DNA from: a virus | Direction: 5' to 3' (one strand) | Virus record (IMG/VR): IMGVR_UViG_3300034152_000117 | Span: 1 to 20,499 of that record | Length of the DNA: 20,499 nucleotides | Shown: one piece after another, positions 2,815-19,805 of the stretch | How the letters are laid out: each line of letters starts with the position of its first letter | How positions within the stretch are numbered: position 1 is the stretch's first letter | Position numbers and translations under genes: made by a program | The notes under the pieces: model-generated | Databases searched by the model: none | What the model was told of the DNA's origin: nothing | What the model saw: the letters and a program-made list of their open reading frames with translations, nothing else

Positions 2815-3869
2815 TGGCTCTACTTTGGTTTGATGGATTCGACCGCTATGGGGACGACTCTGGCTATGTCGATCCACGACAAATCATGCTATGCCGTTAC
2901 CAGCTAGCTGGAAACGGTAATCTTAACATTGCAGCAAGACCAGGCAGATTTGAAGGTTACTCAATTTCCATTCTTTGGGATGCCTCACATTGGTTTCAAA
3001 CTCCATACTTGACAACTGATAAAACATTGATTGTTGGATTTTCAATGTACCAGGACGAGTCAAGGAATGGAATCTTCATGTCTCTTAGAACAATTAACAA
3101 CTATTATGTAGGATTACAACTACAACTCAATAGTGATGGTTCCTTCAGTGTTCTTCGTGGTTGGACTGTTTTAGGAACAACAGCGGCAGGAGTGCTTCCT
3201 TTAGATGAGTGGAAGTTTATTCAACTCAAAGTTTACTGTGATGGTACAAGTGGTACAGTTGAACTTCGAGTGGACAATACAACTGAACTCACGTTGACAG
3301 GTATCAATACTCAAGACGATCCAAGTCACGATTATTATGCGGCCGTTCGTTTCCAAAGTATCACGCACATCTGGGAACAATCACCACGCTTCGATGATTT
3401 CTGGGTCTGTGATTCAACAGGTGGAGCACCATGTAATGATTTCCTTGGACCAGGACACATGGTACAACCACTTATACCATCGTCAGCAGGCGATTCATCA
3501 GATTGGGATGTAACTCCTGGTCCAGATCATTATGCTGCCGTTGATGAATTGGTGCAGGATGATACCGAATACGTGGAAAGTGTTACAACGGACGACCTTG
3601 ATCTTTACCATTATGATAGTCCACCTACAATGAATGAGATTAAGGGACTTCAAGTTCATAGTGAAGCAAGGGTTACTGGAACTATTGAAAGAACATTGAA
3701 GACAGTCATTAAGCATGACTACATAACAGAAAGTGAAGATGCCGGCCAGTATGTTGGGAATAGTAACTATCTTGCTTTTACACGATTGATGCCACTCAAT
3801 CCTGTTACAGGTGTCGCATGGATACGTGACGACGTAGATAATCTTCAAGCTGGGGTGAAGGTGGGATAA
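2814..3869 (+). CDS. Tandem paralog 2: lectin-like phage surface protein, 351 aa
   Basis: The start overlaps the previous stop (TAATG), and the site AAAGGTGG lies within the previous gene's last codons. It opens MALLWFDGFDRYGDD and keeps the family order: TTDKTLIVGFSMY, VGLQLQLNSDGSFSVLRG, FIQLKVYCDGTSGTVELRVD, the joint WVCDSTGGAPCNDFLG and the end NLQAGVKVG. It is the most divergent copy in the C-terminal half: DELVQDDTEYVES replaces the usual acidic PDDD run, and KHDYITESED replaces the RSGG/KSGG-EYD block kept by the other copies. The family's acidic patch is therefore weaker here. If the copies are receptor-binding or decoration variants, this divergence may reflect a different ligand or partner; that is inference. 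Confidence 0.7.
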   Translation: MALLWFDGFDRYGDDSGYVDPRQIMLCRYQLAGNGNLNIAARPGRFEGYSISILWDASHWFQTPYLTTDKTLIVGFSMYQDESRNGIFMSLRTINNYYVGLQLQLNSDGSFSVLRGWTVLGTTAAGVLPLDEWKFIQLKVYCDGTSGTVELRVDNTTELTLTGINTQDDPSHDYYAAVRFQSITHIWEQSPRFDDFWVCDSTGGAPCNDFLGPGHMVQPLIPSSAGDSSDWDVTPGPDHYAAVDELVQDDTEYVESVTTDDLDLYHYDSPPTMNEIKGLQVHSEARVTGTIERTLKTVIKHDYITESEDAGQYVGNSNYLAFTRLMPLNPVTGVAWIRDDVDNLQAGVKVG

Positions 3870-4933
3870 TGGCACTACTCTGGGTTGAAGGTTTTGAAGG
3901 TTTACAATCTGGCTATTTACCAGGTTGGTGGAATAATCAAGACCTAGAAAAGAACATTCGTCGTCGCTACTTACGAACAAGTAGCCTAATCAATGGTCGT
4001 ATGCAGACAATTGAGGGACGATTTGGTGGGTATGCGGTAGAGTTTTATCCTGGAACTGATGTTTGGTTTGAAACCAAATCACTAACAACAGATCGAACCT
4101 TAATCACAGGTTGTGCTCTTTACTGGGATGTACGAAATGGAGCCGGAAATGGTCGTATTGTCTCATTATATGATGGTGATTTCCTAGAAGGGATGCACCT
4201 TCGCGTTGATGATACTGGATACTACATTGAAGTTTGGCGTGGTAATGTAGTTCTTGAGACAATTACAAGCATTGAACTTCCAATTGATGAATGGTTCTAC
4301 ATTGAGTTCAAAGTTTATTGTGATGATACAAGTGGTTCATGGGAAGTACGACTTAATGGAAATACAATTGGGAGCGCTAGTGGCGTAGATACGCAGGCAA
4401 GCCTTACTAACTACCATCAATCTGTTCGATGGAATACAAATTACTGTGTGCAAAGGGTTGATGACATCTATGTTTGTGATGGTTCTGGTGCGAAGAATAA
4501 TGACTTCCTTGGAGTCATGCGAGTTGTACCAACATGGCCTGATACTGACCATACAACTGAATGGGATACAGTTGTTGGAGCTGGAACCCATTCCTATGCT
4601 GTAGATGAGCAAGAACCTGATGATGATACATCCTATGTTGAGGATGATGATATTGGTGATAAGGACATCTTTGACTATATCAATATCACAGAGAATTTGG
4701 GTCGAGTTGCTGGAGTGATGGTAAATACACTCTGTCGAGAAACAGATGCTCAATACTATGATCTCATTCAAATTGTTCGTTCAGGTGGGGCGGAATACGA
4801 TCAACCTAGCCAACAAGTAGGCTCTTCATCGTATGTTCACAAGTATGATGTTGTTGAATCTGATCCTGATACAGGATTAGATTGGACAAAAACTGGAATC
4901 GACGCAGCCCAATTTGGTGTGAAGGTGGACTAA
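3869..4933 (+). CDS. Tandem paralog 3: lectin-like phage surface protein, 354 aa
   Basis: The start again overlaps the previous stop. It opens MALLWVEGFEGLQSG and has an unusual basic insert near residues 30-37 (KNIRRRYLR). Family blocks follow in order: TTDRTLITGCALYWD, GMHLRVDDTGYYIEVWRG, YIEFKVYCDDTSGSWEVRLN, the joint YVCDGSGAKNNDFLG, the acidic run QEPDDDTSYVEDDDIGDKD, CRETDAQYYDLIQIVRSGG and the end DAAQFGVKVD. It shares long stretches with paralog 4 in the C-terminal half, including the QEPDDDTSY block and SDPDTG-DWTKTGI, so these two look like the most recent duplication or a pair kept alike by recombination. There is no signal peptide and no membrane segment. Confidence 0.7.
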   Translation: MALLWVEGFEGLQSGYLPGWWNNQDLEKNIRRRYLRTSSLINGRMQTIEGRFGGYAVEFYPGTDVWFETKSLTTDRTLITGCALYWDVRNGAGNGRIVSLYDGDFLEGMHLRVDDTGYYIEVWRGNVVLETITSIELPIDEWFYIEFKVYCDDTSGSWEVRLNGNTIGSASGVDTQASLTNYHQSVRWNTNYCVQRVDDIYVCDGSGAKNNDFLGVMRVVPTWPDTDHTTEWDTVVGAGTHSYAVDEQEPDDDTSYVEDDDIGDKDIFDYINITENLGRVAGVMVNTLCRETDAQYYDLIQIVRSGGAEYDQPSQQVGSSSYVHKYDVVESDPDTGLDWTKTGIDAAQFGVKVD

Positions 4934-14819: not shown

Positions 14820-15284
14820 TCAGTTTTTGTCAGGGTCTTTTGTACGTGGACGAGCCAGCCATTCCTGAAGCCATTCATCAAGACGACGATTGGTTTCCTC
14901 TGGACCGAGTTCTTGACGTTGACTCCATAGCTCAGCCATTTTAGCAAAGACTTCCCTATCATAAGTCATACCAGGATAGTTCAAATCCTGGATAGCCATG
15001 AGATTCCACATGGCATGAGCAAGGTGTGAGTTGCCAGTGTCATAAGCATAGAAATCTGCTTCCGGGTCGCCCATCTTCCACTTGATAAACTCAACCATGT
15101 GCCGCATCGCAGCGTCGATGTATTCGTACCACGGCTTACCGCCCTTCCTCCAATTGTCACGCGCATACTTAATCGCGCCCATTTCCTTGACTCGTGAGAA
15201 CGCTTCAATTGCAGTGGGGAATTGAAGCAAGAAACTAAGCATTGGTTTGCCAGTGTTTAACCGTTCAGCTTTCTCCGAACTCAT
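14820..15284 (-). CDS. dATP/dGTP diphosphohydrolase-like (DUF5664-type) protein, 154 aa
   Basis: ATG 15284 follows GAGGA closely. The core, GKPMLSFLLQFPTAIEAFSRV, then MGAIKYARDNWRKGG (35-49), IDAAMRHMVEFIKW (56-69) and DTGNSHLAHAMWNLMAIQDL (82-101), has the A-x-KY-x3-NW, RH-x-VEF and D-x-GN-x-H-x-AH-x2-WN pattern of a phage family that I know as DUF5664 and that is sometimes named dATP/dGTP diphosphohydrolase. The acidic, His-rich helices suit a metal-dependent all-alpha nucleotide hydrolase. The last 50 residues are a charged helix. It overlaps the 61-aa gene by 20 bases and follows the primase-helicase, so a role in dNTP pool control during replication is likely. Substrate is not known from sequence. 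Confidence 0.6.
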   Translation of the reverse strand: MSSEKAERLNTGKPMLSFLLQFPTAIEAFSRVKEMGAIKYARDNWRKGGKPWYEYIDAAMRHMVEFIKWKMGDPEADFYAYDTGNSHLAHAMWNLMAIQDLNYPGMTYDREVFAKMAELWSQRQELGPEETNRRLDEWLQEWLARPRTKDPDKN

Positions 15285-15450
15285 CGTCTTCCTCTTCCTC
15301 TTCTTCGATGTTGTAGAAATCGCCACCATACTCCTCGACGATCTCGTCAAGATCATCGGGGATTTCCTCTTCGTACAGAGTGACGAGAGTTTCAGCGAGA
15401 ACCACTGCTTCCAGCGACCCTGTGCTGCGACAAATCTCAATCCGATACAT
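15265..15450 (-). CDS. Acidic small protein, 61 aa
   Basis: ATG 15450 has GGAGG 6 bases upstream, inside the last codons of the primase-helicase, and is one base from that gene's stop. The first 25 residues are mixed (MYRIEICRSTGSLEAVVLAE); the rest is strongly acidic (YEEEIPDDLDEIVEEYGG, then IEEEEEEDDEFGES). It has two basic residues in total. Strong acidity can mean DNA mimicry, polymerase or helicase binding, or simple solubility; nothing decides between them. It overlaps the next gene's start by 20 bases, so translation of the two is probably linked. It is conserved only by position here; no family is recognised. Confidence 0.55.
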   Translation of the reverse strand: MYRIEICRSTGSLEAVVLAETLVTLYEEEIPDDLDEIVEEYGGDFYNIEEEEEEDDEFGES

Positions 15451-15451
15451 A

Positions 15452-18196
15452 TCAATCCTCCAGGCTGATGTACCGCCCTTTAGCGATATATCGTTTGGTA
15501 TCAGGCGGAACATCCTTTGCTGTGAAGCTAAGGTTCCCGATGTAGAGTTGACCACCAGTATTGTTGCCAACTGGGAACCTGTCAGGGATGTTCTGTCGTA
15601 CTTTCCGTTTTGTCCATGACGCTTGTTCAAAAGCTGACAATGACTCAACGAACCGAGCATAGAAATCCTTGAAAAGAATCTTTTCGCCAGGAACCATGTG
15701 GCAGGATTCTGCAAAGAACTCTTCAAGTGGATCACGATTGGATTCGGCTGCTTGTTCCTTTCCAGCAGTGTCAAGAATCGGTAATCGAAGTCGTGTATCG
15801 GATGTTGGAAGTGAAAGCCCCATCAAAGTTGCCATGAAATGAGAAGCCTCTTCCTCAAGAGCCCTGATGAGAATTGGTTTTGGTATCTCCTCAATCAGTG
15901 GCCCAACATACATGGCTGTAATCCGCGTGTCACCAGGGAAGATAGGGCAGTTGTCGCGGAAGTTTGCTGTTTGAACAAAATGCAAGCAATTCCGTTGCTG
16001 GTACACTTGTTGGTATTTCGCGTGAATACTGATGTACTGGCTAGTTGTCCATTCCTTGATCTTGTTGTAGACCGAAGGACCAGCGTGAGCGATGTTGACT
16101 TCATCAATCACGCCTAGCACTGCATTGGCAAGCTCACCATTAAAATCGCTGGAGTTAGTGAGGGCACGATCAGCCTTCACTACACCACCAGTAACCAGCA
16201 GGCTGATGGCTTCATGGAAAATGGACTTACCAGAGTTCTGTGGTCCATACATAAACAGGTAGGGCAGTGGCTCGAACGGTTCGCGGATGAGGCAAGAAAT
16301 CCAAGCTGTCAGATAATCCTTACCGCTAAAGATGCCCCAATTACGACACCAGGAGGTTTCACGTACCACACCATCAAGGTCTTCGCCACAGTGGCTCATC
16401 ACCCTGTCCCAGTGAGGGTGGAATGGTTTTTCGTCTTCTTCAAGATGGGCGGCCTGAGAAACGAGTTGTGGAGCACCTAGATTCCACTGTCGGCCGCCGG
16501 GGTGCTCTTCGTGAAAAGGTTTACAGACCATGATCCATTGATTCAAGATTGCGTGTCCCATGATGCCTGTGACTGAGGCATCAGGTGGCGATACTGAACT
16601 CAGAACACTCGATACATTTTCGCGTGGGTGTTTAATCCACTCACCATCATTGACGCGGATTCGCCACCCAGCATCAGCGTTTGACGGTGATCTACAGGAA
16701 CGGACAAGTGTATCGAAACGTGTGTAATCATCTTCTTCATCATGCGAATCAAGACGTATGTTGAAGACTTTGATCCACTTACTCTTCTTTTGATTATTCC
16801 AACCATCGAAGCCGGTGTCACTTTCACGACGATCAATTTCTACTACTAACCGACCGTCCTTGTTCTTACGAAGAATGGCTGTACGATCATCATACGTGTT
16901 ACCTGCGGGTAGTTGAAGCTTGGAGCCAAGAGCCGCAACAGCTTCCTTCGCATTTGCAATAGACTCGAAGTGAAAGCCCTTGTTGTTTTCTAGTTCAGCA
17001 CCACCCAGAGCAACAGATGATTCGCTAAGTGTCGGTTTCCTGTTGTAATTACACCAAGTCCAACCCTGACGATCCTGATTCCATAAACCATGCTCAATGG
17101 TTCCTTGACCGAATCGAAATACGATGAAAGCACCATCCTTCTTTGGTATGCAGAAACAGTTAGGCTTCCCTTGATCTGTACCTGGCGAAACTGTGTCAAA
17201 GAATCCACGCATAGCGTGGCCTTGTTCTTTCCACTCACCATAGACTTGCTTCAAAGCGTAAGTGTGTGTCTGCACGAGATTGTGGTCAGGAACCCAAACG
17301 CATGTGTAACCCGTCATTTCCAAATCGCTGATGATCTTCTTGTGCGTCTCATCCAATGGAACCTTCGGGTGAGCAGTAGTGAGTTGCGAGAGTGGGTCTT
17401 GATCGTCAACTTCCTCACCTGAATCATTGATGCCAACAACACGTACCTTAGTCGCCTTACCGCCGATAACTTCAAGATGGTCACGCCAATTAGGCGGTAT
17501 GTCGTTATTTGTCAACGGCAATGTTGCCCTTTTAACACACGTGAGTCCTTCCGTCCCGTACATCTTTGTGTGGGCTACCCACATGTTGCCGCCACAAACA
17601 TCCAAGTGGCTACCAAAGTCGAAGGCGGCATCTGTGCTGAGCTTACCGAGCATTGCACGGCCAATGGCGGCGTGCTCAGTATGATTCTGCGTCTTTGGTC
17701 GATCATTTGCTGCGAACCAGATATAAAGGTGTAAGCCCTTACCTCCGGTCGATTTCAGCACCTCAACATATTCAAGTTGACAGGCACGCTCTTTGATTTC
17801 TGCAAGTTGATCGTCGCTGACCCCTGTACCTGGTGCATGACTTGTGATTTCATCAAAGTCGAACCCGACGCCAACAGATTCACGATTAGCCCAATCCCAC
17901 CAGGTTGTGCCGACGCCAAGCCAATGCTTTTCAAGAAGGAACCCAAGCTCACGATCTCGCCAATATGGCTCCGCCATCGCGTTCTTAGGCCATCGAATGT
18001 TGTGCCATTCCTCAGAACCATCAGTCCAGACATTGCGTTTTCCTTCAACTGGATAGCCACCTTCAGGACTGACAAGAAGTTGTGTCTCCAAGTGCCGCAA
18101 ATTGTCTAACCATCGGCAGAAGAACTCAGGATTATTGTGTTTTGGGAGCACTTCGCTACGGAAGTACGTCTCAAAGGCATCCATGATCTTTGCCAT
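15452..18196 (-). CDS. Primase-helicase (AEP-like primase plus SF3 helicase), 914 aa
   Basis: ATG 18196 follows AGAGAGG with 7 bases; an ATG 27 bases upstream has no site. Primase part: GVGFDFDEI (D113, D115), KSTGGKGLHLYIW (148-160, H156) and FDFGSHLDVCGG (D199), matching archaeo-eukaryotic primase motifs I, II and III. Helicase part: Walker A GPQNSGKS (651-658), Walker B AVLGVIDEVN (D698, E699), and a motif C/arginine region, HFVQTANFRDNCPIFPGDTR (about 731-750). These are features of phage and plasmid superfamily 3 helicases. The middle third (about 230-600) is of unassigned function. The protein probably primes synthesis and unwinds DNA at the origin. It reads away from the structured gap at 18197-18590, next to a ParB-like gene. 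No DNA polymerase is in the window. Confidence 0.82.
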   Translation of the reverse strand: MAKIMDAFETYFRSEVLPKHNNPEFFCRWLDNLRHLETQLLVSPEGGYPVEGKRNVWTDGSEEWHNIRWPKNAMAEPYWRDRELGFLLEKHWLGVGTTWWDWANRESVGVGFDFDEITSHAPGTGVSDDQLAEIKERACQLEYVEVLKSTGGKGLHLYIWFAANDRPKTQNHTEHAAIGRAMLGKLSTDAAFDFGSHLDVCGGNMWVAHTKMYGTEGLTCVKRATLPLTNNDIPPNWRDHLEVIGGKATKVRVVGINDSGEEVDDQDPLSQLTTAHPKVPLDETHKKIISDLEMTGYTCVWVPDHNLVQTHTYALKQVYGEWKEQGHAMRGFFDTVSPGTDQGKPNCFCIPKKDGAFIVFRFGQGTIEHGLWNQDRQGWTWCNYNRKPTLSESSVALGGAELENNKGFHFESIANAKEAVAALGSKLQLPAGNTYDDRTAILRKNKDGRLVVEIDRRESDTGFDGWNNQKKSKWIKVFNIRLDSHDEEDDYTRFDTLVRSCRSPSNADAGWRIRVNDGEWIKHPRENVSSVLSSVSPPDASVTGIMGHAILNQWIMVCKPFHEEHPGGRQWNLGAPQLVSQAAHLEEDEKPFHPHWDRVMSHCGEDLDGVVRETSWCRNWGIFSGKDYLTAWISCLIREPFEPLPYLFMYGPQNSGKSIFHEAISLLVTGGVVKADRALTNSSDFNGELANAVLGVIDEVNIAHAGPSVYNKIKEWTTSQYISIHAKYQQVYQQRNCLHFVQTANFRDNCPIFPGDTRITAMYVGPLIEEIPKPILIRALEEEASHFMATLMGLSLPTSDTRLRLPILDTAGKEQAAESNRDPLEEFFAESCHMVPGEKILFKDFYARFVESLSAFEQASWTKRKVRQNIPDRFPVGNNTGGQLYIGNLSFTAKDVPPDTKRYIAKGRYISLED

Positions 18197-18229
18197 ACCT
18201 AAACCTCTCTTTCCTCGCGTCATTCGTAT

Positions 18230-18289
18230 CTACAGTTTATGGTAGCTCAAATCCGGTGATTAGGTCACGAAAAATCGGCAAAATCCGAA
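18230..18289. repeat. Left arm of 60-base inverted repeat
   Basis: This arm aligns without gaps to the reverse complement of 18519-18578, with 46 of 60 positions identical by my count. The outer 22 bases (18230-18251) match at 21 positions, a middle 11 match poorly, then GGTCA and most of a 22-base A-rich block with CCGAA match again. The spaced conservation suggests two protein-contact blocks about one helical turn apart. Confidence 0.75.
18234..18239 (-). promoter_or_regulatory. -10-like box for primase-helicase operon
   Basis: On the reverse strand the arm reads TTTGAGCTACCA followed by TAAACT and GTAG, with TAAACT close to the TATAAT consensus, about 38 bases upstream of the start codon. 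No good -35 is visible 16-18 bases upstream, so an activator or a phage-specific factor may be needed. Confidence 0.35.
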
Positions 18290-18329
18290 ATACCTTAAAT
18301 TAGTGATGAACACTTAAACACCATTTTGA

Positions 18330-18353
18330 GTGGACAAGTGGATGAGTGGATAG
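18330..18353 (+). repeat. Iteron cluster, left (three 8-base units)
   Basis: GTGGACAA (18330-18337), GTGGATGA (18338-18345) and GTGGATAG (18346-18353) stand head to tail. The 17 bases 18337-18353 recur exactly, inverted, at 18418-18434. One further AGTGGATGA lies at 18493-18501. Confidence 0.75.
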
Positions 18354-18410
18354 AGAAAAATGCACCCTAGTGAGATTGAAGAAGAGAAGCAGAGATAGTA
18401 GAGGTAGGTG

Positions 18411-18434
18411 CCATCCACTATCCACTCATCCACT
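18411..18434 (-). repeat. Iteron cluster, right (inverted)
   Basis: Read on the reverse strand from 18434 this gives GTGGATGA, GTGGATA and GTGGATGG. Together with the left cluster it forms a 17-bp perfect inverted repeat with a 64-base spacer. Arrays like this bind replication initiators in plasmids and some phages. Confidence 0.75.
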
Positions 18435-18518
18435 CGTTGTTGTAACTTTTGATCTGTATTGTAGTTACATCAAATCTTCTTACTTTCATGTAAGTGGATG
18501 AAGTCATTTTGTCCATTC

Positions 18519-18578
18519 TTCGGTTTTTTCTGATTTTCCATGACCACTTTGACGATTTTGAGCTACCATATACTGTAG
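18519..18578. repeat. Right arm of 60-base inverted repeat
   Basis: This is the partner of 18230-18289 in inverse orientation. Its outer block lies 12 bases before the ParB-like start codon, so a protein bound here would control, or block, that gene's promoter and ribosome access. Confidence 0.75.
18549..18574 (+). promoter_or_regulatory. Promoter-like sequence for ParB-like gene
   Basis: TTGACG (18549-18554) and TATACT (18569-18574) resemble sigma-70 boxes but are 14 bases apart; an overlapping TACTGT (18571-18576) would give 16. The start codon is 16 bases after TATACT, so the leader would be very short. Confidence 0.4.
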
Positions 18579-18590
18579 AGGGACGCGGCG

Positions 18591-19541
18591 ATGGACCTGA
18601 AGTACATTGAGCCAAACAAGATACGCCAACCAAAGTACCTTTTTCGGCCCGTCCGAAAGCACAGCGTCGAGTATCAAGAGATGCTGGATTCGATCCGTGA
18701 CCACGGTTTGTGGCAGCCAATTTTGGTGCGACCACTACGAAATGGACAATACGAAGTAGTAGAGGGTAATTGGAGATTCACCTGTTGCAAGCAACTTCGG
18801 TTTGAAACGGTTCCATGTGTTATACGGGATTTAACGGATGATGAGGTTTTACTGGCACAGTTGCAGGCTAATGGAATAAGGCCAGAAACAACACCAGTAG
18901 AGTTTGCAGATCGTTTGGAACAGATTATGCGTCGTCAACCCGGTATGACGGTGCCTAAACTAGCCCGAATGATCTGTAAGAGCCCTCACTGGCTGAGACG
19001 TATCCTTCGACTCACAAACTTGAAATCAACATACAGTCAAATGACTCGAAGGGGAGAAATTCCGCTAGAGTCAGCCATAGCATTAGCACGTTTACCACAA
19101 GCATTGCAGGATGCGTTTATACAACAAGCAGCTATCCTGCCTGTTCGAGAGTTTGTCAAACTTGCTAATGCTGAAGTGAAGCGATACCGAGAAGCGTCAA
19201 AGAATGGCTACATTGATGGTTTGAGAATCAATCGAGAGCAACCAGTACCTTATCTTCGGAAAGTACCGGAAATTAGGGCAGAGTTTACTAAGCCTGCCGC
19301 CGCTGGTCCTGTTCTGTTGAAAATGGATGCTCAGTCACCTTTCGATGGATGGAAGGCTTGTTTGGCATGGATTTTGCACATGGACCCCGAGAGTCTGGAG
19401 GAACAAGAACAAATGATCGTAGCCCGCCGCGATCAACAGCAACGTGCTGAAGAGAGGCGGAAGTTAGAACGCCAGAAGCTTAGGGAGCTACGAAAGGCTG
19501 CAAGAAACAAACGCAACAAACGCAACATAGCAAAGAATTGA
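18591..19541 (+). CDS. ParB-like DNA-binding protein, 316 aa
   Basis: GAGGG precedes ATG 18591 by 8 bases. The N-terminus is ParB/Spo0J-like: LDSIRDHGLWQPILVRPLR (32-50), then YEVVEGNWRFTCCKQL (54-69), where EGNWR stands for the usual ERR-containing nucleotide-binding box, then VPCVIRDLTDDEVLLAQLQ. A helix-turn-helix lies at about 117-142 (GMTVPKLARMICKSPHWLRR). The C-terminal part carries a charged coiled-coil-like helix (EEQEQMIVARRDQQQRAEER) and a basic tail. Family members bind DNA and use CTP to slide; some phage relatives regulate replication or are nucleases. There is no ParA gene in the window. It is divergent from the primase-helicase and shares its control region, so it may be an initiator partner or an autoregulator. 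Confidence 0.78.
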   Translation: MDLKYIEPNKIRQPKYLFRPVRKHSVEYQEMLDSIRDHGLWQPILVRPLRNGQYEVVEGNWRFTCCKQLRFETVPCVIRDLTDDEVLLAQLQANGIRPETTPVEFADRLEQIMRRQPGMTVPKLARMICKSPHWLRRILRLTNLKSTYSQMTRRGEIPLESAIALARLPQALQDAFIQQAAILPVREFVKLANAEVKRYREASKNGYIDGLRINREQPVPYLRKVPEIRAEFTKPAAAGPVLLKMDAQSPFDGWKACLAWILHMDPESLEEQEQMIVARRDQQQRAEERRKLERQKLRELRKAARNKRNKRNIAKN

Positions 19542-19714
19542 CTAGAGCGAGAACCAAGCCCGTTGATTCACTTGCTTAGACGTTCGTTACGTGTAGTGTG
19601 GTGAAATGCGCCCCCACGGTAACCGCGCACTGCTAATGGCAAGCGTGAGCTTGCGACGGCAACTTGAGCCGCAAACATCCCCAACGACCGCAAAATGTTT
19701 CGTTTGTTGCGTTT
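19509..19714. repeat. 14-bp inverted repeat spanning the ParB-like gene end
   Basis: AAACGCAACAAACG at 19509-19522, inside the last ParB-like codons, is exactly reversed and complemented by CGTTTGTTGCGTTT at 19701-19714, 178 bases later. The left arm contains an AACAAACGC direct repeat that also encodes the basic tail. An RNA could close a large loop holding smaller hairpins. Confidence 0.6.
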
Positions 19715-19805
19715 GGAATCAAGTGTAACGGGTATGACGGCCTATACCGGTTGTAACGGTCGCTGACCGTGGCGGAAACAAACACCAATTGTAAAGGTAC
19801 CGATT
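19542..19805. other. Non-coding stretch with hairpins
   Basis: No supported gene was found in these 264 bases. Seen directly: GCAAGC-GTGA-GCTTGC (19639-19654), CGGC-7-GCCG (19657-19671), GGTAT-8-ATACC (19731-19748) and ACGGTC-GCT-GACCGT (19756-19770). TGTAACGG occurs at 19724 and 19753, with a TGTAAAGG at 19791. None is followed by a T run, so these are not standard terminators. A small RNA, an operator set or the leader of the next gene would each fit. Confidence 0.4.

Follow-up and report, generated by a model that had tools for sequence, protein, structure and literature searches.

What is the function of the nested inverted repeats that lie between two divergent replication and ParB-like genes in an uncultured phage genome? 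The window analyzed here is a 20,499-bp IMG/VR fragment (IMGVR_UViG_3300034152_000117), in which positions 18197-18590 form the gap between a primase-helicase gene on the minus strand and a ParB-like gene on the plus strand. We conclude that the two outer arms of the structure are probably two of the three copies of a genome-specific control element (the count of three being that of related genomes), and that they are wrapped around a likely origin of replication.

Results

The left arm (18229-18289, minus strand; core at 18229-18251) lies upstream of the primase-helicase gene and reads leftward. The right arm (18519-18579, plus strand; core at 18557-18579) lies upstream of the ParB-like gene, reads rightward, and stops 11 bp short of the start codon. 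The arms are complementary at 47 of 61 positions without gaps and share the core TTTGAGCTACCATAwACTGTAGA (22/23; 18557-18579 and the reverse complement of 18229-18251). Nested between them is a further inverted pair, 18334-18353 and 18418-18437 (19/20), composed of GAGTGGAT-type units. The best ungapped inverted-repeat score for 18197-18590 is 26.0, compared to a mean of 8.5 and a maximum of 12.5 in 500 dinucleotide-preserving shuffles of the same region, and the inverted arms and nested iteron repeat are far beyond chance. These values agree with the first-pass annotation of this DNA, which had reported 46/60 identity for the arms, 21/22 for their core, and an inner repeat of 17 bp. An Rfam search of the window returned no RNA family. 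A second inverted repeat (95%), CAAACGCAACAAACGCAACAT, occurs at 19508-19528 and 19695-19715 and spans the end of the ParB-like gene and the adjoining downstream noncoding stretch.

The gene on the left (15452-18196, minus strand) is predicted to encode a primase-polymerase and SF3 helicase. Its reading frame opens at 18223, its first ATG, and in relatives the start corresponds to the ATG at 18196. Pfam DUF5906 matches at 658-765 (1.2e-14), the N-terminal fold resembles LigD-Pol/PrimPol (Foldseek probability, 0.94-0.99; E value, 2.7e-3 at best; the model is poor overall), and the C-terminal domain is winged-helix-like. Primase-polymerase and SF3 helicase are thus combined in one protein, as in those of the P4/NrS-1 kind, and there is a weak match (E value, 0.77) to PDB entries 6k9c/6k9e ("Primase"), which we take to be NrS-1. 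A dATP/dGTP diphosphohydrolase-like gene (14820-15455, minus strand) adjoins the PrimPol gene and recalls phages with modified bases. In one relative (G013), the primase gene contains an extra internal stretch, probably an intein, and a LAGLIDADG insertion within a DNA methyltransferase (L356:15923-17617) is probably another. HNH/AP2-like homing endonuclease genes or their remnants seem to have entered the interval that separates the left arm from the primase gene at three loci (L005, L011, and L014); read from the sequence, this interval resembles a hot spot for insertions. In compact lineages (G022, G024, G028, G030, and G034), the primase leader contains the palindrome GCGTnTAAACGC.

The gene on the right (18591-19541, plus strand) encodes a protein with ParB_N and HTH_ParB domains, here called ParB-like protein 1. 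Its CTP-site motifs are degenerate (GNWR and ANGIR), and the intact motifs expected for ParB/parS partition (GxRR and ENxxR) are missing from this protein. A second, canonical ParB with intact motifs (GHRR and ENLQR) is encoded in 26 contigs (e.g., G028:C1:47072-47866), ~6 to 43 kb from the first; it was not found in G006.

Scans of viral contigs with the primase and ParB-like proteins yielded 13, then 72 and 63, loci. Inverted arms were present in all 10 of the relatives first examined, with a sequence that is specific to each lineage and with both arms matching within each genome. In the closest relative (G001), GAGCTACC is changed to GGCGTACC in both arms, i.e., there are three substitutions in each. 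An upstream inverted repeat scores >15 at 59 of 62 ParB-gene loci, many of them closely related (shuffle maxima, 8 to 13.5); in L232, L239, and L240, the top repeat consists of the iterons. Nearly every locus has inverted arms between the ParB-like and primase genes, with L257 and L258 as the clear exceptions. The spacing of the arms varies from a compact palindrome of ~80 bp to >600 bp, and in G003 and G006, their matching reaches 60 to 77 bp. A pattern scan of viral contigs for the core of the window detected only the known relative, and the relatives in phage GenBank were too remote to inform. The first-pass annotation knew of no described phage origin with exactly this plan; we find that the plan is not unique to this phage and is conserved across a large uncultured group. 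Relatives of the primase in genome_contigs number only three, all from Planctomycetota MAGs (two of them Pirellulales), which suggests Planctomycetes as the hosts of the phage group.

Whole-contig scans with the core of each genome located a third copy of the element directly upstream of a conserved zinc-finger-like gene. This gene carries a C..C..C..H pattern, and the structure of its product has no PDB match. In the first set, the copy precedes the gene in 5/5 contigs that hold it, and among the relatives it lies ~25 to 43 kb from the arms. The zinc-finger-like gene of G004 heads a run in which terminase, portal, and capsid genes follow downstream of the third copy. The similarity of the ParB-side copy to the third copy of its own genome averages 22.7, versus 9.85 after permutation of the genomes (20,000 permutations; maximum, 15.5; n = 18 contigs), and the own pair is the best match in 16 of these contigs. 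The third site matches poorly in G015 (9.5) and is short in G008 (12.5). Random windows from the same genome almost never reach the own-pair score; the single exception, in G030, probably corresponds to the third copy, as this copy remained in the window set there. Genome-wide scans of most contigs recovered no copies beyond these three; the fragment that forms our window shows two, so that the count of three comes from relatives. Two zinc-finger-like genes are present in G030 (C1:77187-77708 and 3512-4024), only one of them with the element of that genome. Relatives thus contain several matching sites per genome, which differ between genomes.

The element is bipartite, with boxes at -34 to -29 and -15 to -2 and a diverged spacer between them (column analysis of 7 compact genomes with 3 copies each). 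Within-genome identity of the boxes is ~1.0 at many positions where between-genome identity is 0.29 to 0.48, with a few constant bases interleaved, and different genomes combine the left and right core halves in many ways. The copies mostly end 10 to 85 bp before start codons, often near the ribosome-binding site. Together with the two-box shape, this position points to a promoter or operator as the likely function of the arms. A consensus scan of 18150-18640 for sigma-70 TTGACA/TATAAT hexamers separated by 16 to 18 nt gave 0 matches. The bulk of the coding sequence is oriented rightward from the third and ParB-side copies, and a primase block of ~4 to 5 kb is oriented leftward; smaller minus-strand blocks also exist, and the third-copy segment of G009 is inverted. 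As coding directions fan out from the copies, these seem to head the main transcription units.

Inside the arms are the iterons. Cluster A (18328-18353, plus strand) reads GAGTGGAC-AAGTGGAT-GAGTGGAT with 8-bp spacing, and the inverted cluster B (18411-18437, minus strand) reads GAGTGGAT-GAGTGGAT-AGTGGATG. The spacer between them (18354-18410) is, from its letters, pyrimidine-rich on the minus strand and is present in relatives too, and a solitary iteron, AAGTGGATGA, lies at 18492-18501 (plus strand). The 229-bp inner region contains 6 copies of AGTGGAT, where the composition of the remaining window would predict 0.1. Across the sub-group to which the window belongs, inner regions hold 6 to 10 copies of AGTGGAT or 4 to 5 of TGTTGAY (G013 and G006), versus ~0.1 to 0.3 expected. 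All four combinations of arm type and iteron type occur (G000/G004, G013, G003/G005, and G006). Because the two types combine freely, different factors probably read each. Iterons of other types are found in two remote genomes, G017 and G018, and compact genomes have none at the arm junction; given this absence, the iterons cannot be the universal origin of the family. Judged by their distribution, they are a separate, optional layer beside the arms. The DUF5906/SF3 helicase domain and primase-polymerase-like N-terminal fold of the adjacent protein make initiator sites our best guess, and given also their strong enrichment and their inverted arrangement about the pyrimidine/AT-rich spacer, the iterons are plausible candidate sites of the PrimPol-SF3 primase-helicase. 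GC skew, proposed at first pass as a check of the origin, follows gene direction and so argues neither for nor against an origin here.

Discussion

The observations are best accounted for by one short bipartite cis element that would start the main transcription units of the phage. Its left copy would serve the primase/replication operon, its right copy the ParB-like/helicase/polymerase operon, and the third copy, which would lie outside the window, the terminase-portal-capsid operon. Each genome has its own version of the element, and all copies would be read by a single trans-acting factor or complex. In the sub-group of the window, the divergent copies flank an independent module in which a pyrimidine/AT-rich spacer separates 8-bp iterons of opposite orientation. 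The PrimPol-SF3 helicase is most likely loaded here, which would place a replication origin between divergent control elements. In part, this is what the first-pass annotation had proposed in taking the arms for duplicated promoters or operators through which one factor controls both directions. They do behave as duplicated regulatory elements, with the third copy heading the structural operon in relatives; the ParB-like protein that it named as a candidate binder is disfavored as the reader of the arms.

Since all copies in a genome match in its own version, they must have a common reader, a single trans-acting factor or complex, and the competing explanations differ in part over what this factor is. 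ParB-like protein 1 adjoins the sites at nearly every locus and has both ParB_N and HTH_ParB domains, and the arms could be its parS or operator sites, through which it would autoregulate all three operons in the manner of KorB. We consider this unlikely on comparative grounds. The helix-turn-helix is nearly identical in L243/L259 and L270, whereas their elements differ at 5 of 16 positions, changed in both arms; the columns of the helix-turn-helix correlate with the element no better than those of the rest of the protein and less well than primase control columns; and the CTP-site motifs are degenerate. Comparison disfavors the second ParB as well, as its helix-turn-helix hardly differs between G043 and the G029 group though their element versions do. 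No tracking of the element was seen for the HTH exonuclease. A gene-by-gene comparison of G043 with G029, G040, G041, and G042 for an element-tracking protein, made with a crude ORF caller, brought out mainly structural genes and a mobile insertion; the contig of G043 stops a short distance beyond the second ParB, and the reader may therefore be encoded outside this contig. The apparent insertion, in the ParB operon of G043 (L364 to L366, ~40.7 to 43.9 kb), is a run of ORFs that is missing from close relatives and resembles tandem tyrosine recombinases. A more specific form of our preferred explanation, in which a host or phage sigma factor itself recognizes the element as a promoter with lineage-specific -35 and -10 boxes, without a separate regulator, fits the spacing of the boxes and their location just upstream of ribosome-binding sites. 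It is somewhat doubtful, as Sigma70_r2 was matched in only 3 of 16 phage contigs, 2 of them above the cutoff, and the region has no sigma-70 consensus. The control of a search for T7-type RNA polymerase gave no signal, which makes that search uninformative.

The matching of the copies might instead be the outcome of homogenizing recombination or template switching rather than of the requirements of a factor. Being inverted repeats of each other, the arms could undergo intramolecular correction, and the long matches in G003 and G006 count in favor of such a process. Yet the third copy, tens of kilobases away, matches over only 15 to 20 bp in several genomes, with diverged flanks, and matching is limited to the two boxes, with a diverged spacer, so that we hold homogenization to be quite improbable. 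It could also be argued that arms and iterons are all initiator sites and that the whole structure is a single origin of the primase-helicase, considering the adjacent SF3 helicase gene, the nested symmetry, and the iterons. The solitary occurrence of the third arm copy at the structural operon and the free combination of arm and iteron types make this very improbable.

Several known systems resemble parts of this arrangement. At the P4 origin, iterons lie close to a primase-helicase replication module, and P4 alpha and NrS-1-type modules, like the one described here, have a primase-polymerase and SF3 helicase in one protein with iterons nearby. Unlike in those modules, the iterons here are 8-bp inverted clusters flanked by regulatory arms and are missing in many relatives. 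In P2-type phages, a few late operons share one site for the activator Ogr; a few operons would likewise be under a common site here, but the element varies between near relatives. Among genome-specific site sets, the stoperators of mycobacteriophages (PMC6550527) are the nearest described that our search of the open-access literature found. Cluster A mycobacteriophages have up to ~30 asymmetric sites, mostly not at promoters, which are bound by a known repressor (PMC6550527). As in our phages, the sites are spread over the genome, and their consensus is specific to each genome and differs from one related phage to another; in the mycobacteriophages, it matches a cognate DNA-binding protein (PMC6550527). 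The number differs, with only three sites here, one per main transcription unit. Cluster O mycobacteriophages also combine a short repeated element with a ParB-like gene, but their 17-bp palindrome occurs in >30 copies, many inside genes, and is the same between phages (PMC4351075), whereas the element described here has few copies and is lineage specific.

A bolder statement is possible, and we offer it tentatively: uncultured phages of Planctomycetes may run most of their genome from three promoters with a private code, rewritten in concert in each lineage and read by a factor other than either ParB-like protein, with an origin nested between two of them. Across these phages, dozens of regulator-site pairs form a natural series: the site changes in concert at its three locations, and most proteins remain alike. 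Comparison across this series could reveal the reader and the residues that determine its specificity. For the biology of Planctomycetes, for which there are few phage tools, the gain is a defined set of candidate promoters together with a candidate origin of replication.
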